This document shows positions 11,908 through 35,082 of a stretch of 37,535 bases of DNA, in pieces (the stretch's first letter is position 1; every line of letters begins with the position of its first letter). The notes below the pieces were generated by a model. That model did no database searches. It was not told the origin of the DNA and was given only the letters and a program-made list of their open reading frames with translations. The stretch is from NCBI RefSeq assembly GCF_002028545.1, contig NZ_MWPQ01000041.1, forward strand, positions 1 to 37,535, read 5' to 3'. This DNA is from Nitrobacter vulgaris. GTDB taxonomy: Bacteria; Pseudomonadota; Alphaproteobacteria; Rhizobiales; Xanthobacteraceae. Both the position numbers and the translations under genes were made by a program.

Positions 11908-13103
11908 ATGGCGCCCGATACAATATTCATTGATGTTGCCGGCTCCGCGCATCTTTTTAAAGGCGAAGCAGCGCTTTTGAAAGACCTCCATTCCCGGCTT
12001 GCCTCCGCGCAGCTTTCGGCGCGGGCAGCTATAGCGGATACACCCGGCGCGGCTTGGGCGATCTCGCATTACGCGGGAATTGATATAGTACCGCCCGGCC
12101 GAGCCGCCGATGTTCTCGGCAGCCTGCCGGTGGCGGCTCTGCGGCTTCCTCAGCAGGCATCAGCCTTCGCGAAGTCGGCGTCGAACGAATTGCGCAGCTC
12201 GCTTCTCTGCCGCGCGCTTCACTTCGCCAGCGTTTTTCGGGCGATGTCCTCCTTCGCCTCGATCAGGCACTGGGCGCGGCAGTCGAAGTGCTCGTTCCTC
12301 TGATACCGAAGGAAGTGCCGCGCATGACGCTGAAGTTTGCCGAGCCGATCAGCACTCCCGACGATCTGCAGCGAGTCATGGCGCTTTTATGCGAAAAGCT
12401 CATGATTGATCTTGGCGCGCGCGGCGTTGGCGCAAGGCGGCTCGACATGGTGTTTCAGCGGGTCGATAATATCTCGCAAGCGCTCCGAATCGGTACATCG
12501 AAGCCGAACCGCGATACGAAACATCTTACCAAGCTTCTTGCGGAACGGCTTGTGCTGATCGACCCGGGCTTCGGCATCGAGGAAGCGACTCTGACCGCCT
12601 CATGGGTCGAAGCATTGACGGAGCGGCAGACGGTTGGAGTCGCGGAGACGGGATCCGAAGTCGACGTCAGCCAGCTCGTCGACACGCTTCGCGTTAGGCT
12701 AGGCAACGAACGGGTTTTTAGGCTCACGCCGGTTGAAAGCGATATTCCGGAGCGTTCAATGCGGCGCGTCGCGCCGCTCTTCAGGACGGACGGCGCAACC
12801 TGGCCGAGCGATTTGCCCAGGCCAGCGCGGCTGCTGTCGCCTCCTGAGGAAGTGCATGCCGTCGCTGAAATTCCCGACAGCCCTCCGCGTTTCTTCGTCT
12901 GGCGCAAAATCCGCCACCGGATCGCACGGGCCGATGGCCCCGAGCGCATTCTTGGCGAGTGGTGGCTCTCCGATAAGGAGATAGGCCTCCAGCGCGACTA
13001 TTACCGCGTCGAGAACGAAACAGGCGAGCGCTTCTGGCTTTTTCGCGATGCGCCGGCTGAATCCGGCGGACGCTGGTGGCTTCACGGTCTGGGTGAAGCA
13101 TGA
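11908..13103 (+). pseudogene. imuB: ImuB, mutasome Y-family-like protein; truncated and frameshifted
   Basis: ImuB is the catalytically inactive Y-family polymerase-like hub that links DnaE2 to the beta clamp in damage-induced mutagenesis. The fragment begins inside the palm region (TIFIDVAGSAHLFKGEAAL, then ARAAIADTPGAAWA, PPGRAADVLGSLPVAALRLP). A one-base deletion near 12155 follows, then ISLREVGVERIAQLASLPRA, LRLDQALGAAVE, the little-finger-like region and the C-terminal GERFWLFRD...[12 protein letters not shown] to 13103. Restored, it is 398 residues against about 500 in intact ImuB. The missing N-terminal 80-100 residues are not found in any frame upstream, and a stop precedes the first ATG. 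Its last four bases overlap the dnaE2 start (ATGA), as in intact cassettes. imuA is absent. Confidence 0.8.
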
Positions 13104-16100
13104 GCTACGCAGAGCTTCAGGTCACAAGCCATTTTTCGTTTCTGCGCGGCGCGTCGAGCGCTGAAAAGCTATTCGCTACCGCGGCAGTGCTCGGCATCGA
13201 CGCTCTCGCAGTCGTCGACCGCAACTCGCTTGCAGGGATCGTACGGGCCTATGAAGCTTCGCGCGTTACCGGCGTGGGCCTCATTGTCGGCTGCCGACTC
13301 GATCTTGAGGATTTTACCTCTTTACTAGTCTACCCGACGGATCGCGCCGCATATGGACGGCTGTGCCGCCTGCTCACTGTCGGAAAAGCGCGAGCGGGCA
13401 AAGGCAAGTGCGCGCTCTTTATCAATGGCGTCGCGGAATGGAGCGAGGGGCTTATCGCCGTCCTTGTCACTGACAAGCCGCACAATGATCTACCAAGCCA
13501 TTTGCATCGAGTTAGATCAATTTTCGGAGACAGGGCATACTGGGCCTTGACGCGCCGCTTTCGCCCGGACGATGCGGGCTATCTCCACGATATAGCGACG
13601 ATGGCGTGGCAGGCGCGCGTCCCGACCGTCGCCACCGGCGACGTTCTGTATCACGTGCCCGCGATGCGCATGCTGCAGGACGTCGTCACCTGTATCCGGC
13701 TCAAGACGACGATAGACAAAGCGGGATTTCTTAAGGAAAAGCACACCGACAGGTTTTTGAAAGAGCCTGCCGAGATGGAGCGTCTATTCCGGCAGTATCC
13801 GGATGCCATCGCGCGAACATGTGAGATTGCGACACGCTGCAAATTTTCTCTGGAGGAGCTGACCTACAGTTATCCCACTGAAGTCTCAGAAGACGGTCTC
13901 TCCGCGCAAGACCGGCTTGAGAAACTGACCTGGGAGGGAGCCGCGCAGCGCTATCCCGAAGGCATTCCTGACAACGTGGCGATGCAGCTGAGGCATGAGC
14001 TCGGCCTCATCGAACGGCTGCAATATGCCCCCTACTTCCTGACCGTAGATTCCATCGTGCGCTTTGCGCGCTCGAAGGGCATTCTTTGTCAGGGCCGCGG
14101 CTCCGCCGCTAATTCCGCGGTGTGCTTTGTGCTGGGCGTCACTTCCATCGATCCGGTACGGCAAGGACTCCTTTTCGAGCGGTTCGTATCGGAAGAAAGG
14201 CGCGAGCCTCCCGATATCGACGTCGATTTCGAGCATGAGCGGCGTGAAGAAGTCATCCAGTAAATTTACGAAACCTACGGCAGGACACGATCTGCCCTGA
14301 CCTCGACCGTGACGCGCTACCGCGCCCGCGGCGCAATCCGTGAGGTCGGCAAGGCGCTCGGCATACCGGAAGACGTGACCGGGGCGCTCGCCCGCATCAC
14401 CTGGGGCTGGAGTGAGGAAGGGGTTTCGGAGACGGAGCTAAAGGAGCTCAATCTCAATCTTTCAGACCGGCGCCTGCGAATGACGATTGAACTCGCGCGC
14501 CAGCTCATGGGAACGCCGCGGCATCTTTCGCAGCATCCGGGAGGCTTTGTGCTGACGCTGGACCGCCTCGATGAGCTGGTGCCCATCGAACCGGCCGCGA
14601 TGGAGAAACGGCAGGTGATCGAGTGGGATAAAGACGATATCGAGGCGTTGAAGTTCATGAAAGTCGACGTCCTCGGCCTCGGCATGCTCGGCTGCATGCG
14701 CCGCGCCTTCGATCTTCTGCAATCGTCGAAGGACAGTAAGCTGGGTCTTGCAACGATCCCCGCGGAAGACCGGCGGACTTACGAGATGATCCAAAAGGCA
14801 GATACGCTCGGTGTCTTCCAGATCGAAAGCCGCGCGCAGATGTCAATGCTGCCGCGCATGCAGCCGACGCGCTTCTATGATCTCGTCATCCAGGTTGCCA
14901 TCGTGCGGCCCGGCCCCATCCAGGGCGATATGGTGCATCCCTATCTCCGCCGCAGGGAAGGTAAGGAGCCGGTCGCGTTTCCAAAGCCTGAACTGGAGAA
15001 GGTTCTCGGCAAGACGCTGGGCGTGCCGCTCTTTCAGGAGCAGGCGATGCAGGTCGCGATGGTGGCGGCCGGGTTCTCGGCGAATGAAGCCGACCAGCTG
15101 CGCCGCGCCATGGCGACATTCAAATTCACCGGCGGAGTCAACAAATTCAAGGATAAGCTCATCCAGGGCATGATCGATAATGGATACGATATCGAGTTTG
15201 CGAACCGCACCTTCCGCCAGCTTGAAGGTTTCGGTTCATACGGCTTTCCTGAAAGCCACGCCGCAAGCTTTGCGCTTATCGCCTACGCTTCCAGCTGGAT
15301 GAAATGCCATCATCCCGAGTGTTCTGCGCGGCGATCCTCAATGCGCAGCCGATGGGGTTTTATGAGCCCTCGCAGCTTGTACGCGATGCGATCAGCCACG
15401 GGGTCAATATCCGCCCTATTGATGTAAATAGCTCAGCCTGGGACTGCACGCTGGAGCCCGACGGGAAATACCACGCGGTCCGGCTCGGGCTTCGGATGAC
15501 GCGCGGCCTTTCTGAAAAAGATGGCAAGACCCTCGCCTCTGCTCGCGCAAACCGTCTTTACCAATCTATCCCTGAATGCGCGCGGCGCGCAGGCATCGGA
15601 CCCGGCGCCCTCGTGCGCCTTGCAAACGCCGACGCTTTTTCCTCGCTCGGCCTGTCACGCCGCAAGGCTTTGTGGGCAATCAAGGGCCTTCGCAATGACG
15701 CCCTTCCCCTCTTCGAGGCGGCGGGCCAATGCGCGAAGGAGCTCGTGCCCGAGCAGGTCGAGGAGGATGTTTCGCTTCCCGTTATGACCCGCGGCCGCGA
15801 GGTCGTCGAGGATTACAGATCACATGGCCTTTCCTTACGCCCGCATCCGCTGGCCTTCCTCCGCGCCAAACTGTCCTGCCAGGAGATCAGCCCCTGTGCC
15901 GCCTTGCGGACCGCTAAGAGTGGATCGCGCATCACCGTCTCCGGCCTCGTCATGGTGCGTCAGCGGCCTGGCTCTGCCAAGGGCGTAATGTTCATTACGC
16001 TTGAAGATGAGACCGATATTGCAAATCTTATCATCTGGCCTTCGCTTTTCGATAAACTGAGGCGCGTGATCCTGGGCGCTCAGATGCTTGCCTGCCGCGG

Positions 16101-16356
16101 CAGAGTGCAAGTGGCGAACGGCGTCATCCACCTCATTGCCGAGCATCTCGTCGATCAGTCATCATTGCTACGCAAGATTGGCGGAAGCGATGAGCCGTTC
16201 GTGGTCCCCGCAGGAAGAGGCGATGAAGCGATTCATGGCAGCGGTGGCGGGACTGATAGCCGTGAGACCAAGGCGTTTAATCATGCCGCCCGGGACATCT
16301 ACATCCCGGACCTTCACATTGATACCCCCAACGTAAAGGCGCGAAATTTTCGCTAG
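13100..16356 (+). pseudogene. dnaE2: DnaE2, error-prone DNA polymerase III alpha; nonsense codon plus frameshift
   Basis: Three consecutive pieces make one DnaE2 of 1,085 codons, the usual length. 13100-14263: PHP domain ([17 protein letters not shown]) and start of the palm with catalytic PDIDVDF. TAA at 14261-14263 replaces a probable Tyr (VIQ[18 protein letters not shown]), without frame change. 14264 to about 15322: palm and fingers ([51 protein letters not shown]). A one-base deletion at about 15322 ([20 protein letters not shown]) moves to the frame ending at 16356, with helix-hairpin-helix and an OB domain (ITVSGLVMVRQRPGSAKGVM). Intact DnaE2 is the SOS-induced translesion polymerase working with ImuA and ImuB. 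Two independent lesions plus a broken imuB make function very unlikely. A truncated product would end about 14 codons after the first two catalytic aspartates. Confidence 0.88.
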
Positions 16357-16416: not shown

Positions 16417-16593
16417 GGTTGCGGAGTACCAGGGCGAGGCCGAAGACGGTCCGGTGCGAATCTGAACATGAAAACGCGTTTAAAAATCCGCAGACGCAAG
16501 CAGATACGCTGGCGGCTGATCACTCTCGGCTTTCTGACCGCGCATACCGCCTACCAACCAGATTTTAACGGATGTCCTTCGCTCGCTTTGCCC

Positions 16594-16639
16594 AGACCGG
16601 ATTCGTTCTTGCGAACGAATGGGAGTGAAACCGAGAACT
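16594..16639. repeat. 46-bp interspersed repeat, copy 1
   Basis: It aligns without gaps to 34846-34891, 40 of 46 bases identical, starting AGACCGGATTCGTTCTTG. It contains the hairpin ATTCGTTC-TTGC-GAACGAAT. The surrounding gap (16417-16672) shows no convincing gene, only a weak frame from 16468. Confidence 0.6.
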
Positions 16640-17235: not shown

Positions 17236-17469
17236 CAAATGTGATCTGCGATTCGCGCATGAGCGCAGCACGGTGAGTACCAGAAAATTGGCGGTGCTTT
17301 GACGATGTCTTCAATGGCCACTTGGTTGAAATTGACCTTTTCGGAATCGGTGCTCGAAACAAGGCAACCAGACCTGTCATGAAGGTCAGCCGCCGGCCTA
17401 TAAATCTGCCGTTGGCGTCTGTCCCCGCAACAGGGGCCCACTTCAGCTGTCATTGTTTCTGCGATAAAT

Positions 17470-18171
17470 TTACGATCTGGCGCGCGCGTGACCAAAATAC
17501 ATTATGCTGTTGAACGGATGGGGTCCGAAACTAAAGTCGAGGTGCCGGTCGATACTGCGTGGGCCGAAACCACACACAGGTCCGACTTGAAAACCTGCCT
17601 GTAGCAAGACTTCACTCAGCTCGGTTGGCTTGATGAAGAGGTCGCTGTCGTGCGTGCCTCGCGGCAACAATCGAAGAACGCGCTCGCCCAGAGTGATGAT
17701 CACGAATTTGGCGAGCCAAGTGCGATTGATGGTATCGAATACGAACAGCGCCCCATGTCGCAGCACGCGCCGGACCTCGGCAATCACCCTGTGGAGATCC
17801 GCGACATGCTCCAGAACGTCCACACAGACGACCACGTCACAGGACGCATCGGGCAATGGAATACTCTCGCCGACGCCCACGACGTAGTCGATCTCGAGCC
17901 CGACCTGACGGGCATGGTCCACCCCAGCGGCAATCGCACCATGCGATGGGTCGACGCCGACAACTTTGGCGCCTCGACGAGACAATTCTTCCGCAAGGAA
18001 GCCGCCGCCACAGCCCAGATCCAACACACGTTTGTTGACCCAATCGCCGACCAGCGGGTCGATCATCATCATGCGCGCAGGCGCCATTTTGTGCAGCGTG
18101 CGCAGCCATCGCGTCTCACCGCTCCACCATGTCTCAGCGTACTTCTCGTAGATGGAGAGGTCGTTTTTCAT
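17470..18171 (-). CDS. Class I SAM-dependent methyltransferase, UbiG-like
   Basis: 233 residues from ATG 18171. Motif I VLDLGCGGGFLAEELSRRGA at about 49-68, the acidic end of strand 2 (VVGVDPS), motif II-like VVCVDVLEHV with post-motif HRVIAEVRRVLRHGALFVFD, and the UbiG-like segments WWSGETRWLRTLHKMAPARM and FIKPTELSEVLLQAGFQVGP. The pattern is closest to 3-demethylubiquinone O-methyltransferase UbiG. The start differs from core UbiG, and the gene is coupled to a membrane methyltransferase, so a ubiquinone role is not assured; a polyprenyl- or quinone-like substrate is possible. ATGA overlap with the upstream gene (18171-18168) fixes the start, although the frame is open further upstream. Confidence 0.8.
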   Translation of the reverse strand: MKNDLSIYEKYAETWWSGETRWLRTLHKMAPARMMMIDPLVGDWVNKRVLDLGCGGGFLAEELSRRGAKVVGVDPSHGAIAAGVDHARQVGLEIDYVVGVGESIPLPDASCDVVVCVDVLEHVADLHRVIAEVRRVLRHGALFVFDTINRTWLAKFVIITLGERVLRLLPRGTHDSDLFIKPTELSEVLLQAGFQVGPVCGFGPRSIDRHLDFSFGPHPFNSIMYFGHARARS

Positions 18172-18968
18172 ACGTCGTCGGGCTCGGCAGTCGGCATTCT
18201 CGTTCGGTACAAGGGAAGCCAATAGGGCACCCGCCTCTGATAGGCCCTAAACTGTTCGCCAAAGCGACGGGAGAAGCGCCGCTCCTTCAGGAGTGGCCCG
18301 GTCACGCAATAAAGTGTCAGGACGATCGCGACTTCAAGCTGGTCTGGGGTCCATGTTGGGACCGTCCAGAGTGTCATCGCAAAGGCGACGTAGATCGGTT
18401 GCCGGTAGAAGCGGAAAAGACCACGCTGGGGCATGGGCGCATAGCATGGTGGGACGTTCTGATAGACGGCCCACCAGCCCAGAAGTCCTATTTGCTGCGC
18501 GAAGCCCGCGTCACGAATTGCTTTGAGAAGCAGGAGCCAACTCACGAGATAAAGAGTGCAGAGAGTTGTCAATGCGAAGCCTTGGGCTTGCCACCAAATG
18601 ATCCCGCTCGGAGACCAGCCCAGAAAAAGCAAAGCTACCTGTATGGAGGCAATAATAGCGTAAGTTGTTGTTGCAAGGTCTTGGCCAATCCGCCTGGGTG
18701 CTGCGCGCGCCAGCAGCCTGGCGCCCCGTCGCCCCAGCAGAGCAGAATGCGCAAGTGGAAACTGAAGAAGCAGGGCAAGGTTTGCGGCGACACTCCATGG
18801 CGCGTCAAGACGGCCCAGAGATCGGCTCATGCCGAAGAACATCATCACGATCATAGCGCCGACCCCGACGATGAACGATGCATGGCATACGACGCCATAG
18901 GCTATTGCAACACGAAACCGGCGCCAGACCGGACTAGAGTCTGTCGCATCAGGACGGATCACTCGCAT
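18168..18968 (-). CDS. Membrane methyltransferase, NnrU/ICMT superfamily, possibly MddA-like
   Basis: 266 residues from ATG 18968; ATG 18977 and ATG 19052 are in-frame alternatives and none has a clear ribosome site. Five or six hydrophobic segments (about 15-45, 60-80, 95-115, 125-145, 185-215). The C-terminal FYRQPIYVAFAMTLWTVPTW, TPDQLEVAIVLTLYC and KERRFSRRFGEQFRAYQRRV are the SAM-binding helices of isoprenylcysteine carboxyl methyltransferase-like proteins. Methanethiol S-methyltransferase MddA belongs to this group and has a similar P-W-T...FG..Y..Y...VP ending. MddA makes dimethyl sulfide from methanethiol. The substrate cannot be fixed from the sequence. It overlaps the UbiG-like gene by four bases, implying coupled expression. 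Confidence 0.65.
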   Translation of the reverse strand: MRVIRPDATDSSPVWRRFRVAIAYGVVCHASFIVGVGAMIVMMFFGMSRSLGRLDAPWSVAANLALLLQFPLAHSALLGRRGARLLARAAPRRIGQDLATTTYAIIASIQVALLFLGWSPSGIIWWQAQGFALTTLCTLYLVSWLLLLKAIRDAGFAQQIGLLGWWAVYQNVPPCYAPMPQRGLFRFYRQPIYVAFAMTLWTVPTWTPDQLEVAIVLTLYCVTGPLLKERRFSRRFGEQFRAYQRRVPYWLPLYRTRMPTAEPDDV

Positions 18969-19301
18969 CTGCACCATCGACGTTTGAGAGAAACACAGCG
19001 GCAACTTTGCTCTAGGCTGGCACCCGAGTATGTTACTGCCGTGGATGCCCATCGGCCAAGGGACCGCTTATCCACGGCGCAAGTCGATAAGCAGCGCGTT
19101 GCAAGCAGGTCGCTGACAGCTTTTGGCCTGCGATAGTCTGGGGTGCCCCGCTGAGGCGGGGATGGGCGACAGCCTAAAGTTTCCCTAAGCAGCTCGTGCG
19201 GCCGAAGGAAGCGAAGGTAACCAGACTTGAAAAGCAGAGAGCCTGAGGCGGCTCGCTGGGCTCCGCTAATATGCGGCACCGTTTTCCTGCGAAACCCTAT
19301 A

Positions 19302-19326
19302 GGAACCAGCGTGGCGCCGGCACGTT
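19302..19326 (+). promoter_or_regulatory. EcfG-type promoter, GGAAC-N16-CGTT (perfect)
   Basis: GGAAC (19302-19306), 16 bases, CGTT (19323-19326). Only seven bases separate the -10 from ATG 19334, leaving no room for a ribosome site: a predicted leaderless transcript. Confidence 0.65.
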
Positions 19327-19333
19327 CACGGCT

Positions 19334-19675
19334 ATGGACACCGCCACACTCGTCGGCTTTTTCGCCGCCTTCTGCACCTCCGTCTCGTACGTTCCGCAGC
19401 TTAAGAAGTGCTGGGAGACCGGCAAGGCCGAAGACCTGTCGCTCATGATGTTCAGCGTGCTTGCGACCGGCGTTGCCGCGTGGATCGTCTACGGCATCTT
19501 CAAGCACGACATCGTCATCATCATTGCCAACGCGTTGAGCCTGTCCTGTCTCGCGGGCATACTGTGGTTCAAGCTCAGGGAAGATAGGCCTCGTCGCTCG
19601 AGCTCAAAACATCAGGGCGCAGAATTTCTCAAAGTTAAAACTGGCTCAACCAAGCCGCAAATTGCGCGAGAATAG
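19334..19675 (+). CDS. SemiSWEET sugar transporter
   Basis: 113 residues. Residues 1-84 hold the three-helix PQ-loop repeat: MDTATLVGFFAAFCTSVSYV then PQLKKCWETGKAEDLSLMMF, SVLATGVAAWIVYGIFKHDI, VIIIANALSLSCLAGILWFK. The PQ motif and the conserved W...G/N residues fit bacterial SemiSWEETs, which dimerise to form a facilitative sugar channel (Bradyrhizobium japonicum has a studied member). The C-terminal 28 residues (about 86-113) are a charged extension beyond the usual 85-95 residue length. ATG 19334 is chosen by homology to the family start; the frame is open upstream to 19271 but crosses a perfect EcfG promoter. The promoter position predicts leaderless translation and induction under general stress. 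Confidence 0.9.
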   Translation: MDTATLVGFFAAFCTSVSYVPQLKKCWETGKAEDLSLMMFSVLATGVAAWIVYGIFKHDIVIIIANALSLSCLAGILWFKLREDRPRRSSSKHQGAEFLKVKTGSTKPQIARE

Positions 19676-26200: not shown

Positions 26201-29200
26201 CTACTTTAGATTCGACTGTACGCCCCCAAGATGGATCAAGAGGACATGTTTCCCTCCATCTAAGGGAACGCGAACAACCCCTTCAATGCGCCCAACAGGC
26301 GCGCCGTCAAGGACAGCTTCCACCACATTGCGGCCCGCGCCAGGCAGGTTCCGAACGTGGATATCATAGTACGTTGAGGCTATTGTTACCGCGACTTCGA
26401 AACCCGGCCAGGCGGAGGGAATACGCGGGTCAACGACGAGAAACGCACCCTCGCGGCGAATGCCAAGAATGCTCTCGACCCCTGCGCGGTACATCCACGC
26501 CGCTGAGCCCGTGTACCAGGTCCACCCCCCGCGCCCCGTATGAGGTGACACGGAGTAGACGTCGGCGGCAACCACATAAGGCTCGACCTTGTAGCGCTCG
26601 ACCTCTTCGAGGGTCCGGGCGTGATTTATCGGATTAACCAGCGAAAACAGATCGGCGGCACATGCGCCCTTCCCCAGCTTCGCGAACGCCATGATCGCCC
26701 ACATGGCAGCATGACTATACTGCCCGCCATTTTCCCGCAGCCCCGGCGGGTAGCCCTTGATGTAGCCCGGATCGCGCGACGTAATGTCGAAGGGCGGCGT
26801 GAATAGCAGGGCGAGGCCATCGTCACGGCGGATGAGATGCCGGTCGAGTGCCGCCATTGCCCCGGCGGCGCGCGCGGGATCGGCGGCTTCCGACAGCACC
26901 GCCCAGGACTGGGCGATGGAGTCGATCTGGCATTCCTCGCTATCCTTCGAGCCGAGCCACGTCCCGTCGTCGAACGTAGCCCGGCGATACCATTGGTCAT
27001 CCCATGCATCCCGCTCAATCATGGCTTGGACGGAGGCGGCATGCGTCCGCCAGCGGTGGGCGCGGTCCGGATCACGAATGTCAGCGAATGGAGCAAAGAG
27101 CGCCATGGTGCGCACCAGCAGCCAGCCGAGCCATACGCTCTCGCCCTTGCCGCCCTCACCGACCCGGTTCATGCCGTCGTTCCAATCGCCCGTACCGATG
27201 AGCGGCAGGCCGTGCTCGCCCGTAAGGTCGAGGCATTGGTCGAGACCGCGGGCGCAATGCTCGAACAGGGACGCCTGCTCGTCCGCTATCATCGGCTGGA
27301 AGAACGCATCGTGCTCTCCGGTGCCAAGGGTCGGTCCCTCCAGAAACGGCAAAACCTCGTCCAGAACGGCAGTGTCGCCGGACGCCTTGATATAGGTCGC
27401 GGCAGCGAAGGCGAGCCAGACCCGGTCGTCGGAAATGCGTGTGCGCACGCCCTGACCCGAATGCGGCAACCACCAATGCTGGACGTCGCCTTCGACAAAC
27501 TGTCGACCGGCCGCGCGCAGGAGATGGCGGCGCGTCTCGTCCGGCGCGGCAAAGGACAGTGCCATGGTATCCTGGAGCTGATCGCGGAAGCCGTAGGCGC
27601 CACTCGCCTGGTAGCTAGCCGAGCGTGCGAGCACGCGGCACGCAAGTGTCTGATAGAGCAACCAGCCGTTCAGCATGAGGTCCATCGTCCGGTCCGGGGT
27701 CTTTACCCTCACTGCGCCGAGCAGGTTATCCCAATGATCCGCCACCGATGCCAGCACGGTGTCGAGGTCGGTTTTGCGGGTTCGGGCGATCAGTTTGCGT
27801 GCGTCCTCGACCGAACCGCATTGTCCGAGGAGCCAAACGATCTCGGTCGTCTCACCTGCCCCGAGTTCGATGCTCGTTGCGAGCGCAGCGCAGGGGTCGA
27901 AGCCGGCACCAACCGCACCGGACAGCGTTCCGCCATGGACCAGCGCGGCCGGTGCTTCAAGTGCACCATTATGACCGACAAACTCGGCGCGGTCGGCCGT
28001 CCAGGCCGTCTGCCGCCCGCCAAGATCGGCGAAGGCGATCCGGCCGGGAAAGGCGGTGCTCCAGGGATTGCGGGCGAGAATGGCGCCGCTGGCCGCATCG
28101 ATCTCCGTTACGATGAACGGCGCGGAGGCACCGCGGGACGTGCCAAGCACCCACTCGGCATAAGCGGTGATCGACAGCCGCCGGGCGTGTCCTGAGCGGT
28201 TGCTAAGTGTCAGCCGGGAGATCTTGACCGGATCGGACAGCGGCACGAATTGCAGCAGCTCGAGCGCAATGCCGTTTGCCTCGTGCTCGAAGCGACTGTA
28301 GCCGAAGCCATGGCGGGCGACATAGAGCCCGCCATCTCGGATGGGTTGTGCCGTCGGGCTCCAAAGATCGCCCGTGACCTCATCGCGGACATACATCGCC
28401 TCGACGGGGGGGTCGCTCACCGGATCGTTCGACCATTGCGTCAACTGGTTTTCGCGGCTGTTCCCGGCCCAAGTATAGCCGGGTCCCTCCGTCGAGACCT
28501 GGAAGCCGAAGCAGGAATTGGCGATCACGTTGATCCAGGGGGCGGGCGGCAGGCGCTCACCGTCGAGGACGGTCACGTATTCTCGCCCGTCTTTGTCAAA
28601 GCCGCCTAGACCATTGAAGAATTCGAGACCGGCTGTCGCCACCGCCGCCGCCGACTGCTGGGCGGCGGGAATTGCCGCCCTCGGTTTTGGATGTTTGAGC
28701 GGCAAAGATCCGCCCGACGGCGGTCGTAGGCGGGCGAGCTGATCGGCGAGCGTACCGCGATATGCGTGCAGGACGACACGGGCGACCGCATGCAGCAGCG
28801 AGCGGGCCTCGACGTTCATGAGGTCGGCACGGAGCGTATAGACCGTGCCTTGCGAAGGGACGTCGCCAACGCGCGGTCGCGACTGGCTGCTGCGCACCGC
28901 GGTTTCGATCGCAATCTGCAGGTCCTGCAGATAGGAAGCGGCGTGCTCGTTAACGATGACAAGATCGACCGCGAGACGCTTCATGCGCCAGTACTCGTGC
29001 GCGCGGAGCAACTGGGCGACCTGAGCCATGTCCTCGATATCGTAAATTCGCAGCACGACGATCGGCAGGTCGCCGGAGATACCATAGGGCCACAGGCCAG
29101 ACTGGGCGCCCGCTCCGCGCAGGATCGCCTCCGAAGATGCCCGGAAGCGCAAGTCGGCGTAGAGGATGGGCGCCGCGAGGCGCTGGAAATCTGCCGCCTC

Positions 29201-32200
29201 TGTCGTGGCGATGCCGAGATGCCGAAGCTGGACCTGTCCCTGCGTCCACGCCAGGGTCTTCGCCCGGTCGAATGCGTTGCGGTCATGGTGCTTGTCGATG
29301 AGTCCCAAAAGTTCGTCTCGTGACGATGCGACAACGGTCCAGAAGGCGACCCGCGCAACCTTTCCGGCGGGAACCATCACTCGTTCCCTAAGCGAGAAGA
29401 TCGGATCGAGAACCGTCCCCACCGTTTTTGAAAGCGGCTGGCCGTCCAGGATAGCGGTGGCGTCGGCAACCGCGCGGCCGCGGCCAAGAAAACGAGCCCG
29501 ATCGGTCTCATATTGCGGATCGGCCGCGACCTCGCCTTCAACGACAGCGAAATGGGCAACCCAGAGCCGTGGCTCGTTGTTCGACCTCGGACGGCGAGTC
29601 GCGAGGAGCGCGTCGAATTCGGGAAGATGCTCGGTCTGCACGAACAGCTTGGAAAAAGCCGGATGGGCATTGTCAGCGGCCGGCGCCGCCAGCACCACCT
29701 CCGCGTAGGACGTGATCTCGATCTCGCGCGGCCGGCCTCCCTTGTTGGTCAAGCTGACGCGGCGGACCTCGCCATCGTCCTCGCTCAAAACCAGGATGTC
29801 CGTTGTCGTCGTTAGACTGCCATCGCGGTGGACGAACTGTGCATGGTCCTCGCCGAAAAAGACTTCGTCGTGATCGGCACCGCTGCCGTCGGACCGTGCG
29901 CCTACCGACCAAATTTTCCCACTTCGGCTGTCTTTGAGAAAAAGGAATGATCCCCAGTAGTCGCGAGTCGTGTCCTCCCGCCAGCGCGTCACCGCGATGT
30001 CTCGCCAGCGACTGTAGCCGCCTCCGGTCGCGGTCAGCATCACGGCGTAGCGTCCGTTCGAAAGCAGATGCGTGACCGGCGGGCCGCCCGTCGATGCCGA
30101 AAGGCGGCGTACAGTCACGGCCTCGGTGACCGTCCCCGGAGGGGCTGACTTCACCTCCTCAGCGCGGGGATGCACAATCGCAACCTCCGTTGGTATGCGC
30201 TCCTGCAACAGAAGCTCGCTGGCCTTTACCATAGGCTCGCGATGGAACCTGGCGCGCATACAGCCATCGTACAGGGTGTTGGCGATGGCGACGATGGTCA
30301 TGCCCTGGTGATGCGCCATAAAGGCGCGCACGATCACGACGTTCTCCCCCGCCGGCAGACGCGAGCGGGTGAAATCGAGAGATTCATAAAAGCCGTAGCG
30401 GCCCCGAGCGCCCATCGCCACAAGCCGGACGTAGTTCGCTTCCGCGCGCGCCGGATCGACCATGGCCGCCAGCGCCGTGGCGTAGGGCGCGATCACGGCG
30501 TTCGCCGAGAGCCCGCGCTTGAGGCCGAGGCCGGGCACGCCGAAGTTGGAATATTGATAGGTGAATTCGATGTCGCGAGCGTTGTAGGCCGATTCTGAAA
30601 CGCCCCAGGGAACCCCTAGGGATTGGCCATACGCCTGCTGACGTTTCACAACCAGATGGCCGGTCTGCCCGAGCAGACTGTCGTCGGGCGCGCGCATCAC
30701 CAGCGACGGCATCAGGTATTCGAACATTGACCCCGACCAGGAGACCAGCGCCGCGCCGCCACCAAGCGGCGTTACCGCCCGGCCGAGGCGGAACCAGTGC
30801 TTTGTCGGGACGTCGCCCTTGGCGATCGCAAACAGGCTCGCGAGCCGCGCTTCGGACGCGAGAAGGTCGTAGCAGCTCGGGTCAAGGCCATTGTCGGCAA
30901 GCGAATAGCCGATCGAAAGCAGCTTCCGATCGGGATCGAGGAGAAAAGCGAAATCCATTGCCAGCGCCATTTCGCGCGCTGTGTTGGCGAGCGCCTTCAA
31001 CCGCCCGTTCAGAGGGTGGGCGGGGTCGGCAAGTCCGGGACGATCGCGCAAAAATTCGAGCCCAATCCTCTTCAATGCCCCGATCCAGAACAGGAGATCC
31101 GGTGTGTCGCAGTCCTCAGAAATGGGCGTAACGCTGCGAGCGGCCGCGGCTGCCTTTTCGGTAAGCCGGTTCAAGGAGGCGGCTATCCGTTCGATTGCCT
31201 CAGCCCCATTCAACCGGGTCTCGATATCGTCAAGAGCGGCGAAGAGCGAGTGCCCCCTGCCCCCCGCGTTCGTCGGCAGAGCTTCCGCAGCCTCGCGCGC
31301 CAGTCGGAGGGCATCGTTCATCCCGACTCTCGTATCCGGCATGCACGTCGGATCCATCCATTCTTCGCAGGCATTGGCGAGCGCAATCAGATGGCCAGCG
31401 AGATTGCCACTGTCGACCGACGAGACATAAGCCGGGTCGAGCGGGCGCAGATCCCGCGTATCGTACCAGTTGAAGAAGTGCCCCTTGAACTGGGCGAGTT
31501 TCCGCATCGAGCCGAGCGTAGCCTCGAGGCGCTCAACGGTCTCGGTCGTTCCCGCCCAGCCGAAGTCGCGGGCGGCGACCGCGGACAGGAGATAAAGTCC
31601 GATGTTGGTGGGCGAGGTGCGGTGCGCGAGCGCGGGCTTCGGATCTTCCTGGAAGTTGTCGGGCGGCAGCATGTTGTCGTCCGGCGTCACGAAGGTCTCG
31701 AAATAGCGCCAGGTGCGGCGCGCGATGAGGCGCAAGTCGGTCGCATCTGCCGGCGAAATCGAAAGCCGCCGCGCGATCGGCGGCGCCCGGCTGATCCGGA
31801 AGGCGAGTGCCGGCGCACATGCCCACAGCAGTACGAAAGGCAGGACGAGCGGCCAGGATGCCGGAACAGCCGCGAGCGTGAGCGCCGCCAGGGCCAAGCC
31901 GAGCACCACGCCGCCTGCCATCCCGCGATAGAAGCCGCCCATGCCCAGCCGAGCCGCCGCCGTCGATTTCGCTGCCGTAGTCCATTCGAGGAGATGACGG
32001 CGAGTCACGAACAGTCGCAGCAGGGTTCTGGCGATGGCGTCTGCCGCCCGTTGCGCATGGTCGGGCAAAAAGGCGACCGTGAACGACGTCTGGGCGGCGG
32101 CGAGGCGGAGACCTCCGGCAAGCGCGCCGAGATGGTTGCGCACGCGAAGCCCGGCGCGACGTGGCAGGACCGAGAAGACGCTCGGGAGGAATGCCGGGAT

Positions 32201-34747
32201 GGCGACGGTGGCGAGGACGAGCAGGAGCCCGACGATGGCAGCCGGCATCGGCAGCAACCAGCAGAAGACGACCGCCATCAGCGTGGTCGGCGCAAGCAGC
32301 GAGCGCCTTAGATTGTCAAGCATCCTTAAGCGACCAAGGAGTGGCATCGTCCCGCCGCGACCAACGATCCAGGGCAAGAGCTGCCAGTCGCCACGCACCC
32401 AACGATGCTGGCGCTTGGCAGCAACGTTGTATCGATTCGGAAACTCCTCGACGACCTCGATGTCGGACGCGAGGCCCGCGCGAGCAAAAACACCCTCGAA
32501 GAGATCGTGGCTGAGGAGAGCATTGTCAGGCACGCGCCCGGCGAGCGCCGCCTCGAATGCATCGACGTCATAGATGCCCTTACCGGTGTAGGTACCCTCG
32601 CCAAATAGGTCCTGGTAGACGTCGGAGATCGCCGCCGCATACGGGTCTATACCTGCGGGTCCGGAAGACACTCTTTGATAGACAGACCCCTCACGGCCGA
32701 GCGGTAGCGCGGGTGTGACGCGGGGCTGGATGATCGCGTAGCCGCTAATGACCCTCCGCTCGCGCTCACTGAACTGCGGCCGGTTCACCGGGTGAGCCAT
32801 CTTACCGACCAGGCGGCGAGCGGCATCGCGCGGCAGTCTGGTGTCGGCATCGAGGGTGATGACGAAGCGGACATTGTCCGGAACACGAGGTGCCTTGCCC
32901 GCCACCGCCACGAAGGTTGTGTCGGGAGCCCCACGCAGAAGCCGGTTGAGTTCGTGCAGCTTGCCGCGCTTGCGCTCCCATCCCATCCACACGTTCTCGC
33001 GGGCGTTGAATACGCGGCGACGATGCAGAAGGAGGAAACGGTCGCCATCCGGTCCTGGGCCATAATGACGGTTTAGACGTGCGATAGCCTCGGCCGCGAC
33101 CCCGAGCGGATGTGCGTCGCCGGCGACGATCTCCCGGTCCGCATCGACGCCGTCCGAAAGAAGAGCGAAGGTCAGATCTCCGCCGGAGTCGGCGAGATAA
33201 TGGACTTCAAGCCGCTCGACCTGCTCCATGAGATCGACTTCATTCGTCAACAGCGTCGGAACGGCAATCAGCGTCCGAAACGATTTCGGGACACCCTCAG
33301 CGAGTTCTAGCCCAGGCAGGGTGGTCGCACCGAAGCTCCAGGTGATCGCACGGTTGACCAGTGCGGTTGCCACCCCGGTCGTCGGCAAAAATCCCGCCAC
33401 TGCAAACAAGACAACCCAGTTGGCGTCGAGGCCCGAAGCCGAAAGCGTCCATAAACCGAGGGCCAGCAGCGCCGCGGTGACCGACAGGATGACCCCAACG
33501 TAACCGATGACGCCAGGGCGCAGGCTAAGACGGCTGATCCGCAGTCGGGCACCCGGCCTGAAGCCGATCGTCCGTTCGAACGCACGGCGCCCCTCGGCGA
33601 TCAGATGATAGCCGGGCTCCCCAACTCTCTCGCGCTCCTTGGGATCATGTGCTTGCGCGGCCGCCCCGGAGGATACCAACAACACCTGCTCGGCAACCTC
33701 GATCTCGGACGATAGCGAGCCGCGGGCGAGTTCTTCGATCGCGCTTCTGTAAAGATTACGGGTTGGGAAATCCATCGCGGCAAACGAGCTTCCAACGCGA
33801 AGGTGCTTATCGACGAGACTGACGCTCTCGAACAGGTCCGCCCAGTCAATATCGGAGATCAGTCGCATGCTGGTGATAACGTTGCGGACGGAAACGTTGG
33901 ACGCGCCCAGCCTGTGCTGGGCATTCTGCACGACATCCTCGATCGAGGACTCCTGCAGACGGAGCCGCTCCGCGAGCAAGCCGAGCGCGGGAGTTGTTCT
34001 CGGATCCTGATCCCTCAGGCGCTTGGCGAGTTGCGCTGCGTACACCTCCGACAGGGGCGCACTCAAACGTGCGCCGATATCAGCGTCGAGCGCGGATTGC
34101 GCACCTCCTGATTCCAGAAGCCTGTCGGCGAGCCGATCTGCATCCGCGCGTTCTCCGCGTCCCGCGACGATCTGGTCTGCCAATCGTCGCAGGTTCTCGA
34201 TGAGGACGATGCGAAGGGTGATCGCAACGGCCCACAACTCGCCGATCGTAAGCGGCTGAACCTGCTGATAGGCTGCAATGAACCGGCGCAATATCTCTAG
34301 GTCGATGTGGCTGTCTGTGTGGGCGACAAAAGCCCAGGCCAAGCCGAATACGCGCGGATATCCAACAAACGGACCGTCAGCTAGTTTGGGCAGCTGCCGG
34401 TAATAGCCGGGTGGCAGATCAGCTCGGACTTCGCGGATCTGCTCTTGGACCAGGTGATAGTTGTCCAGCAGCCATTCCGCCGCGGGTACCACGCCTCGGC
34501 CGCTTTCGAGATCGGAAGCGCAGATGCGATAGGCTGCGAGCAAGGCAGCGGCATTTTCACTCAGCCGCGCCTGCAGAGATCTGACTGGCGGCGGTCGCGT
34601 CGTGACCTGCTGCGCTGCGGCCAAGCTTTCCGCATGCTGTTCGAGGCGTTCGACACCGAACAGTTCCTCGCGCACTGGAGAAGTGCCGTTCCACGGTGCT
34701 GATCGAGGGCGGGACCATAGCCCGCCGTGGAAGAAAGTCTGAAGCAT
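26201..34747 (-). CDS. ndvB: Cyclic beta-1,2-glucan synthase NdvB (GT84-GH94)
   Basis: 2,848 residues, uninterrupted, the normal size for this family. N-terminal region with PVREELFGVERLEQHAESLA (about 24-43). First membrane segments at about 410-470. The glycosyltransferase domain carries DADTRLPRD (about 640) and QHRWVRGDW (about 785). A second group of membrane helices spans about 815-985, followed by the glycoamylase-like linker. Two GH94-related beta-sandwich modules precede a C-terminal GH94 catalytic barrel with GTGDWNDGMNRVG (about 2520), the general acid Asp motif. The enzyme polymerises UDP-glucose on an attached chain, cyclises it, and controls ring size by phosphorolysis. The product goes to the periplasm and supports osmotic adaptation and host interaction. 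ATG 34747 fits the family start. Long antisense frames inside it are shadows. No EcfG motif was seen upstream. Confidence 0.96.
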   Translation of the reverse strand: MLQTFFHGGLWSRPRSAPWNGTSPVREELFGVERLEQHAESLAAAQQVTTRPPPVRSLQARLSENAAALLAAYRICASDLESGRGVVPAAEWLLDNYHLVQEQIREVRADLPPGYYRQLPKLADGPFVGYPRVFGLAWAFVAHTDSHIDLEILRRFIAAYQQVQPLTIGELWAVAITLRIVLIENLRRLADQIVAGRGERADADRLADRLLESGGAQSALDADIGARLSAPLSEVYAAQLAKRLRDQDPRTTPALGLLAERLRLQESSIEDVVQNAQHRLGASNVSVRNVITSMRLISDIDWADLFESVSLVDKHLRVGSSFAAMDFPTRNLYRSAIEELARGSLSSEIEVAEQVLLVSSGAAAQAHDPKERERVGEPGYHLIAEGRRAFERTIGFRPGARLRISRLSLRPGVIGYVGVILSVTAALLALGLWTLSASGLDANWVVLFAVAGFLPTTGVATALVNRAITWSFGATTLPGLELAEGVPKSFRTLIAVPTLLTNEVDLMEQVERLEVHYLADSGGDLTFALLSDGVDADREIVAGDAHPLGVAAEAIARLNRHYGPGPDGDRFLLLHRRRVFNARENVWMGWERKRGKLHELNRLLRGAPDTTFVAVAGKAPRVPDNVRFVITLDADTRLPRDAARRLVGKMAHPVNRPQFSERERRVISGYAIIQPRVTPALPLGREGSVYQRVSSGPAGIDPYAAAISDVYQDLFGEGTYTGKGIYDVDAFEAALAGRVPDNALLSHDLFEGVFARAGLASDIEVVEEFPNRYNVAAKRQHRWVRGDWQLLPWIVGRGGTMPLLGRLRMLDNLRRSLLAPTTLMAVVFCWLLPMPAAIVGLLLVLATVAIPAFLPSVFSVLPRRAGLRVRNHLGALAGGLRLAAAQTSFTVAFLPDHAQRAADAIARTLLRLFVTRRHLLEWTTAAKSTAAARLGMGGFYRGMAGGVVLGLALAALTLAAVPASWPLVLPFVLLWACAPALAFRISRAPPIARRLSISPADATDLRLIARRTWRYFETFVTPDDNMLPPDNFQEDPKPALAHRTSPTNIGLYLLSAVAARDFGWAGTTETVERLEATLGSMRKLAQFKGHFFNWYDTRDLRPLDPAYVSSVDSGNLAGHLIALANACEEWMDPTCMPDTRVGMNDALRLAREAAEALPTNAGGRGHSLFAALDDIETRLNGAEAIERIAASLNRLTEKAAAAARSVTPISEDCDTPDLLFWIGALKRIGLEFLRDRPGLADPAHPLNGRLKALANTAREMALAMDFAFLLDPDRKLLSIGYSLADNGLDPSCYDLLASEARLASLFAIAKGDVPTKHWFRLGRAVTPLGGGAALVSWSGSMFEYLMPSLVMRAPDDSLLGQTGHLVVKRQQAYGQSLGVPWGVSESAYNARDIEFTYQYSNFGVPGLGLKRGLSANAVIAPYATALAAMVDPARAEANYVRLVAMGARGRYGFYESLDFTRSRLPAGENVVIVRAFMAHHQGMTIVAIANTLYDGCMRARFHREPMVKASELLLQERIPTEVAIVHPRAEEVKSAPPGTVTEAVTVRRLSASTGGPPVTHLLSNGRYAVMLTATGGGYSRWRDIAVTRWREDTTRDYWGSFLFLKDSRSGKIWSVGARSDGSGADHDEVFFGEDHAQFVHRDGSLTTTTDILVLSEDDGEVRRVSLTNKGGRPREIEITSYAEVVLAAPAADNAHPAFSKLFVQTEHLPEFDALLATRRPRSNNEPRLWVAHFAVVEGEVAADPQYETDRARFLGRGRAVADATAILDGQPLSKTVGTVLDPIFSLRERVMVPAGKVARVAFWTVVASSRDELLGLIDKHHDRNAFDRAKTLAWTQGQVQLRHLGIATTEAADFQRLAAPILYADLRFRASSEAILRGAGAQSGLWPYGISGDLPIVVLRIYDIEDMAQVAQLLRAHEYWRMKRLAVDLVIVNEHAASYLQDLQIAIETAVRSSQSRPRVGDVPSQGTVYTLRADLMNVEARSLLHAVARVVLHAYRGTLADQLARLRPPSGGSLPLKHPKPRAAIPAAQQSAAAVATAGLEFFNGLGGFDKDGREYVTVLDGERLPPAPWINVIANSCFGFQVSTEGPGYTWAGNSRENQLTQWSNDPVSDPPVEAMYVRDEVTGDLWSPTAQPIRDGGLYVARHGFGYSRFEHEANGIALELLQFVPLSDPVKISRLTLSNRSGHARRLSITAYAEWVLGTSRGASAPFIVTEIDAASGAILARNPWSTAFPGRIAFADLGGRQTAWTADRAEFVGHNGALEAPAALVHGGTLSGAVGAGFDPCAALATSIELGAGETTEIVWLLGQCGSVEDARKLIARTRKTDLDTVLASVADHWDNLLGAVRVKTPDRTMDLMLNGWLLYQTLACRVLARSASYQASGAYGFRDQLQDTMALSFAAPDETRRHLLRAAGRQFVEGDVQHWWLPHSGQGVRTRISDDRVWLAFAAATYIKASGDTAVLDEVLPFLEGPTLGTGEHDAFFQPMIADEQASLFEHCARGLDQCLDLTGEHGLPLIGTGDWNDGMNRVGEGGKGESVWLGWLLVRTMALFAPFADIRDPDRAHRWRTHAASVQAMIERDAWDDQWYRRATFDDGTWLGSKDSEECQIDSIAQSWAVLSEAADPARAAGAMAALDRHLIRRDDGLALLFTPPFDITSRDPGYIKGYPPGLRENGGQYSHAAMWAIMAFAKLGKGACAADLFSLVNPINHARTLEEVERYKVEPYVVAADVYSVSPHTGRGGWTWYTGSAAWMYRAGVESILGIRREGAFLVVDPRIPSAWPGFEVAVTIASTYYDIHVRNLPGAGRNVVEAVLDGAPVGRIEGVVRVPLDGGKHVLLIHLGGVQSNLK

Positions 34748-35082
34748 TCGCGCCTTTCCGGCTGCACGGTCAGCGCCGTATGCGAGGGAGGACCGTCGCC
34801 CTTGCCAGAACGATTTATTAACAATGGCCGTCGCTGCTTTTCCGTAGACCGGATTCGTTCTTGAGAACGAAATAGAGTCAAACCCAGAACTTCACGAACG
34901 GGCTTTGCGCTTGCGGCGGGCGATGTGCGGTTTCTTCGGCGAGATTCAAAAACGGCTGATCAAAATCATTTCGCAAGGTCGAACAAGCAACGCCCAAGTC
35001 GGAGATGTGGCAGGCTTGAAGCCGGTCCTCTCTGCCCCAAAAGACCGATACGGCGAAGCGGGATGAAATTCAATGAGACCCA
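34748..35082. other. Upstream region of ndvB with repeat copy 2
   Basis: It holds the second copy of the 46-bp interspersed repeat (34846-34891) about 100 bases before the ndvB start. No gene is recognised. A minus-strand basic stretch (PKKPHIARRKRKARS, near 34900-34945) is preceded by a stop and is not supported. Confidence 0.4.
34846..34891. repeat. 46-bp interspersed repeat, copy 2
   Basis: 40 of 46 bases are identical, without gaps, to 16594-16639. The hairpin arms ATTCGTTC and GAACGAA are kept, although the loop base differs. Here it lies in the likely leader or promoter region of ndvB. Confidence 0.6.

Follow-up and report, generated by a model that had tools for sequence, protein, structure and literature searches.

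Two unrelated SAM-dependent methyltransferases, encoded by the overlapping genes A and B of the window (the whole 37,535-nucleotide stretch of Nitrobacter vulgaris DNA that was analysed), very probably operate as one functional unit, and their pairing is not accidental. The substrate of this unit is rather probably a phenolic or quinol lipid, and the pair itself may tentatively be described as a two-domain SAM-dependent methyltransferase for an amphipathic lipid of that kind. In the branch to which the window belongs, a type III polyketide is a plausible, though less secure, candidate for that lipid. An earlier note on this DNA had reported two unrelated methyltransferases sharing an ATGA sequence, and both open reading frames were recovered on the minus strand, with the stop codon of A overlapping the start codon of B (Table 1). 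Four-base gene overlaps are by themselves common in bacteria. Alternative starts for A are an ATG at 18977 and an ATG at 19052, the latter being the first in the ORF. A long plus-strand ORF, 18129-19136, is listed over both genes, and nothing was found that supports a gene there.

Table 1. Positions of genes A and B, their signature segments and their duplicated stretch in the window
Feature	Position	Strand	Remarks
Gene A, membrane methyltransferase, MddA/ICMT-like, separate family	18168..18968	-	266 aa, P0001
Gene B, UbiG-type class I SAM methyltransferase	17470..18171	-	233 aa, P0002
ATGA stop/start overlap of A and B	18168..18171	-	L027 and L085 have an identical offset
RQPIY (A residues 189-193), belonging to the RxPxY signature common to MddA	18390..18404	-	alignment includes two MddA proteins
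C-terminal signature of A, E-R-G-Y part (residues 229-243)	18240..18284	-	48-sequence alignment
B residues 51-58, DLGCGGGF, SAM-binding motif I	17998..18021	-	alignments to 4kdc and relatives
B residues 169-185, LPRGTHDSDLFIKPTEL, segment common to UbiG (4kdc)	17617..17667	-	alignments to 4kdc and relatives
Stretch present in three genome copies, 90-92% DNA identity	17454..19067	-	C29 copy matches 17479-19067, C56 copy matches 17454-18899

A profile search of the genome_contigs collection with A revealed 339 relatives, 80 of which were analysed. Gene-neighbourhood conservation, proposed by the earlier note as a check, was observed, with B located immediately after A, in the same orientation, in 23 of these 80 loci, six of them as fusions. 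Separation of the genes in relatives, which that note took to speak against a pairing, is also encountered: the other 57 of the 80 loci, again out of the 339 relatives, lack an adjacent B, and in G025 A resides on contig C3 and B on contig C8. Junctions were compared in 24 loci with A and B, comprising those 23 and L027. In six of them (L034-L039) the two genes form a single fused ORF; the fusions come from Alphaproteobacteria and from contigs labelled Planctomycetota, and are partly redundant, L038 and L039 being identical in A and L035 and L036 being close relatives. The remaining 18 loci display a putative B start that overlaps the A stop, located 0 to 37 bases ahead of the final base of that stop. 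Pairwise distances of A and B are correlated (r 0.786 over 22 pairs), with none of 5000 permutations giving a value as high. Within a sample of 397 genomes of the order, A was identified in 8 (E<=1e-25), B in 4 (E<=1e-50) and both in 3, host included, where chance would yield approximately 0.1.

Window A groups with four alphaproteobacterial fusion proteins in two trees, with a support of 92/93, which is below the star level of the tool, in the first and 0.964 in the second (FastTree). When MddA is used as root, the 34-row side of the first tree does not form one clade and is thus termed here one side of an unrooted split. The predicted structure of the L037 fusion presents both domains confidently (mean pLDDT 89), although the pTM of only 0.62 makes the placement of the domains relative to each other unsure. 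Given the natural fusions and the co-divergence, the simplest reading is that both enzymes act on one metabolite. The original suggestion that the two enzymes methylate the same lipid or sulfur metabolite is therefore retained as regards joint action, while an MddA identity of A is not supported, for the reasons given below.

A looks like a working membrane methyltransferase. It contains four stretches over a simple hydrophobicity threshold and its predicted fold comprises long helices (mean pLDDT 90), which agrees with the membrane-integral partner originally proposed. Residues Arg-189, Pro-191, Ile-192 and Tyr-193, as well as Glu-229, Arg-231, Gly-237 and Tyr-243, are invariant in the 48 rows of alignment A4, from which L052, L059, L085 and L098 were excluded for a stop inside the matched range and further loci for size. 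It is the invariance of these R-x-P-x-Y and E..R..G..Y residues, and their alignment with MddA, that gives A the appearance of an active enzyme. All 48 members match the MddA model (NF045656), and the only other model match in A4 is a weak one to isoprenylcysteine methyltransferase in a single member. The proteins share the R-x-P-x-Y and E-R...G...Y...P signature, and the model aligns almost end to end with A (residues 20-252), but A reaches 84.1 bits against a cut-off of 270. In the FastTree tree that includes MddA rows a long branch separates A from MddA, and in G422 and G429 A coexists with an MddA that exceeds the cut-off. On the curated cut-off and this coexistence, an MddA identity for A was rejected. 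The Pfam DUF1295 match is below cut-off, and no match to Pfam ICMT (PF04140) was observed up to E=1. Foldseek revealed no PDB match at E<=0.001, and the top four entries, two steroid 5-alpha-reductases and two ICMT structures (7c83, 7bw1, 5v7p and 4a2n), all present E >0.001 and low TM-scores. A resembles ICMT as a putative membrane SAM methyltransferase but differs from it in the model matches.

B conforms to the UbiG-like partner described previously. It scores 160.5 bits against TIGR01983 (UbiG), exceeding the cut-off of 102.95, and the model is matched by all 27 members of alignment A3 at E<=1e-10; alignments A3 and A5 comprise 27 rows each, further loci having been excluded for size. The profile of B aligns to the UbiG structure 4kdc over positions 4-211. 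Both the SAM motif and the surroundings of LPxGTHD..FIxPxEL are conserved in 27 sequences, of which 26 are B-type proteins or copies and one is the other UbiG-like protein of the host. B therefore passes the UbiG cut-off and retains motif I and the LPxGTHD..FIxPxEL segment of UbiG, an enzyme with the solved structures 4kdc and 5dpm. Unlike UbiG, it has a membrane methyltransferase as its coupled or fused partner, also in contigs labelled Planctomycetota, and it displays only 36% identity to the product of the other UbiG-like gene in the host genome (G000:C56:54418-55017).

The host genome contains three copies of the gene pair, located on contigs C22 (the window), C29 and C56. A is broken in two of the three: in the C56 copy codon 118 is a TAG and the N-terminus is missing, and the C29 copy carries a one-base deletion near codon 210. 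B has no internal stop in any of the three. Comparison of the window with each other copy gave dN/dS values of 0.18 and 0.20 for B and of 0.18 and 0.17 for A. Of 8 other genomes of the window's genus that were compared, none contains DNA resembling the pair, A-B thus being present in 1 of 9, and it looks as if the host lineage acquired the pair and then duplicated it or gained it repeatedly. An enclosing transposon was considered for the three copies and rejected, since their similarity stops a short distance from the two genes and a recognised integrase accompanies only C56 of the two extra copies; there, the pair (L006 6711-9448) is directly beside a gene for a phage-type integrase. Neither L005 nor L006 revealed a tRNA. 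Carriage by plasmids was likewise discarded, as tblastn against plasmids returned one distant record for A and none for B at 1e-40, and carriage by viruses, as a scan of viral contigs with A revealed no relative.

The genes that surround A differ between the two sides of the split. Among the analysed 80 of 339 relatives, 21 loci are from Actinomycetota, and in 20 of these a COMT-type methyltransferase gene (representative PF01596) is divergent to A, the exception being L064, where no such gene is present in the flanks. Searches of the flanks with tblastn located type III polyketide synthase (PKS) in 16 of the 21 loci and ICMT in 16 of the 21, and gene calls placed MMPL in 12 and an FAD oxidoreductase in 13; each of these neighbour groups owes its Pfam name to one or two representatives. 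L105, labelled as a Bifidobacterium breve MAG, shows the PKS-type surroundings of the actinomycete loci and clusters with Mycobacterium in the tree, and its label or binning is possibly wrong. In L037 (Lichenifustis) genes for MFS, ICMT and type III PKS come after the A-B fusion, on the opposite strand, while in L038, a contig labelled Planctomycetota, the fusion is followed by an FAD oxidoreductase and a UbiE-type methyltransferase, with no type III PKS found in that genome. B of G025 precedes genes for a DUF4149-type protein and a FolB-like protein (below cut-off), with a type III PKS-ICMT pair 1.7 kb downstream of B; in G286, too, a DUF4149-type protein comes next after B. The other side of the split, represented by 50 analysed loci, mostly of Rhodobacteraceae, displays FAD_binding_7 (photolyase-like) genes in 18 and DUF4149 genes in 17 of the tblastn-searched flanks and type III PKS in none. 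Conversely, neither FAD_binding_7 nor DUF4149 was identified by tblastn in the flanks of the 21 Actinomycetota loci.

Several short proteins recur in these surroundings. A family of about 108-124 residues lies near A or A-B in 15 of 90 gene-called loci (L027 10167-10493, L046, L079 and others), and the two members scanned had no Pfam match. FolB-like short proteins are present near B or A-B at L115 5868-6209 (Pfam below cut-off) and, by eye, at L088 4673-5089. In the window, a small PQ-loop/MtN3 (SemiSWEET-like) protein is encoded upstream of the pair on the opposite strand (19271-19675).

Occurrence of type III PKS was compared in the genomes of 69 of the 88 A-bearing loci. The enzyme is present in 17/17 Actinomycetota and in 7/12 other genomes on the same side of the split, host included, against 3/40 A-bearing genomes elsewhere. 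Fisher's test of 7/12 against 3/40 gave p=5e-4, with related genomes treated as independent and L031 counted among the rest; the FastTree tree places L031 with rows of the 34-row side. Five of the 12 non-actinomycete genomes on the side of window A yielded no type III PKS, two of them with fusions (L034, L038). The host possesses a PKS-ICMT operon on contig C18 (L114 3625-4677 and 4674-5177), 63/61% identical to the pair of L037 and 57/57% identical to that of G025, and no PKS was recognised near the A-B pair in the part of the window ORFs that was scanned. Many genomes of the order, 121 of 397 (117 over the cut-off), contain a type III PKS, and its enrichment with A inside the order was not seen (3/8 A-bearing genomes versus 121/397). 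In the window's genus PKS is present in 7/9 genomes and A-B in 1/9, six congeners having PKS without A-B. This means that the PKS pathway needs no A-B and that co-occurrence here says little; with co-occurrence weak in both genus and order, the PKS link rests more on the neighbourhoods observed in relatives.

UbiG and COMT enzymes are responsible for the O-methylation of catechols. The repeated partnership of a membrane methyltransferase with an enzyme of UbiG or COMT type fits a membrane-held phenolic or quinol lipid that is methylated at two positions. We infer the activity, substrate, order of steps and topology of A-B from the genes, overlap, fusions, co-divergence, families and neighbourhoods described above. 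A, within the membrane, would methylate one position of the lipid, and B, on the cytosolic face, would O-methylate a catechol or quinol hydroxyl in the fashion of UbiG. In the window's branch the lipid would most likely originate from a type III PKS, as an alkylresorcinol, alkylpyrone or polyketide quinone.

Published descriptions provide a context for this proposal. COMT O-methylates catechols (PMC8730385), and operons that combine type III PKS, methyltransferase and oxidoreductase genes lead to O-methylated polyketide quinones (PMC9927152, PMC5916927). O-methylated alkyl quinones are alternate electron carriers in mycobacteria, the same being proposed in Streptomyces (PMC9927152, PMC5916927), with further context given in PMC8730385 and PMC10896814. 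Similar to these operons, namely srs of Streptomyces griseus, those for mycobacterial polyketide quinones and hidABC for hierridin, A or B is found near PKS and ICMT genes in several relatives. In contrast, neither an A-type protein nor a UbiG fusion is mentioned in the accessible parts of their descriptions, and the window pair is not beside the PKS of its genome. A more specific version, to which we give little credence, is that A-B supplies the methoxy groups of a type III polyketide quinone, giving a ubiquinone-like methoxylated quinone; a UbiG-type enzyme would have been recruited from ubiquinone synthesis, with the COMT-type enzyme taking this role in Actinomycetota. If true, ubiquinone tailoring would have a counterpart among polyketides, and the product might be an additional electron carrier of the membrane.

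Other readings of the pair were weighed against a phenolic or quinol lipid. B could be a second UbiG that acts on ubiquinone precursors under special conditions, A being an accessory that holds it at the membrane or a modifier of the same quinone. The score of B over the UbiG equivalog cut-off and its alignment to a UbiG of known structure over positions 4-211 of the profile favour such a role, which we nevertheless consider unlikely. A distinct UbiG-like gene is present in the host, contigs labelled Planctomycetota contain fusions and A occurs alone in Mycobacterium, and a second UbiG explains neither A nor the fusion in the Planctomycetota-labelled contigs. Planctomycetota and Mycobacterium use menaquinone, and MAG contigs can be misbinned. 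The separate UbiG-like gene and the fusion in a menaquinone-using phylum, as labelled, make ubiquinone itself an improbable substrate, and the invariance of the signature residues of A in 48 sequences argues against A as a mere anchor. Methylation of hydrogen sulfide or methanethiol to dimethylsulfide for detoxification, with A acting like MddA and B like MddM1, is more doubtful still. It draws on the alignment of A with most of the MddA model and on MddM1, which the available part of its description presents as a cytosolic H2S/methanethiol S-methyltransferase of class I in the UbiG family (COG2227; PMC12904073); the UbiG-family label shared with MddM1 is what makes this chemistry conceivable for A-B. 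However, MddM1 as there described has 210 aa, and the same portion describes no membrane partner. Against a sulfur substrate are also the shortfall of A from the MddA cut-off and the genomes that carry both proteins, the retention in the B core of the segment shared with UbiG, and the recurring neighbour families, among which no sulfur gene was noticed.

A comparably low probability is given to a function in light or photo-oxidative stress, mainly in Rhodobacteraceae, in which A-B would modify a membrane lipid or cofactor together with the FAD protein and the DUF4149, DUF2805 and amine-oxidase-like genes. The FAD_binding_7 and DUF4149 flanks of the other side of the split point in that direction, as do gene calls of amine-oxidase-like genes in 6 of 90 loci, of DUF2805 in 6 of 90 and of FAD_binding_7 genes near A in L029 and L032. 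Yet such genes were not recognised in L037 or, in the part of the ORFs scanned, near the window pair, and the Actinomycetota loci, without a FAD_binding_7 or DUF4149 match, have PKS instead. The available part of the CryB paper (PMC3320616) holds nothing useful on a photolyase-type neighbourhood. A light-related role is possible for the Rhodobacteraceae branch, with a phenolic or quinol lipid being the preferred substrate of the window pair.

If a phenolic or quinol lipid is indeed the substrate, the known repertoire for making phenolic and quinone lipids gains a two-domain membrane methyltransferase unit in A-B, whose natural fusions offer one polypeptide for the search for that substrate. 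No title or opening of an abstract that describes an A-B pair was present among the matches listed, the coverage of which is partial and therefore no proof of novelty. The pair also carries a warning for annotation, as B passes the UbiG model and A is nearest to MddA, and neither label probably names the real reaction; ubiquinone or DMS pathway predictions derived from such matches would, if the lipid reading is right, be wrong.

Other features of the window lie outside the gene pair. In the region 12288-16356 an ORF with DUF6504 precedes a gene of the DNA polymerase III alpha type, which is seemingly split, as if frameshifted, into three ORFs (13100-14263, 14309-15427 and 15304-16356), the first of which contains the PHP and DNA_pol3_alpha matches. 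An imperfect direct repeat with 83% identity over 69 columns connects positions 16572-16639 and 34824-34891, and a minus-strand ORF of 2848 codons extends over 26201-34747.
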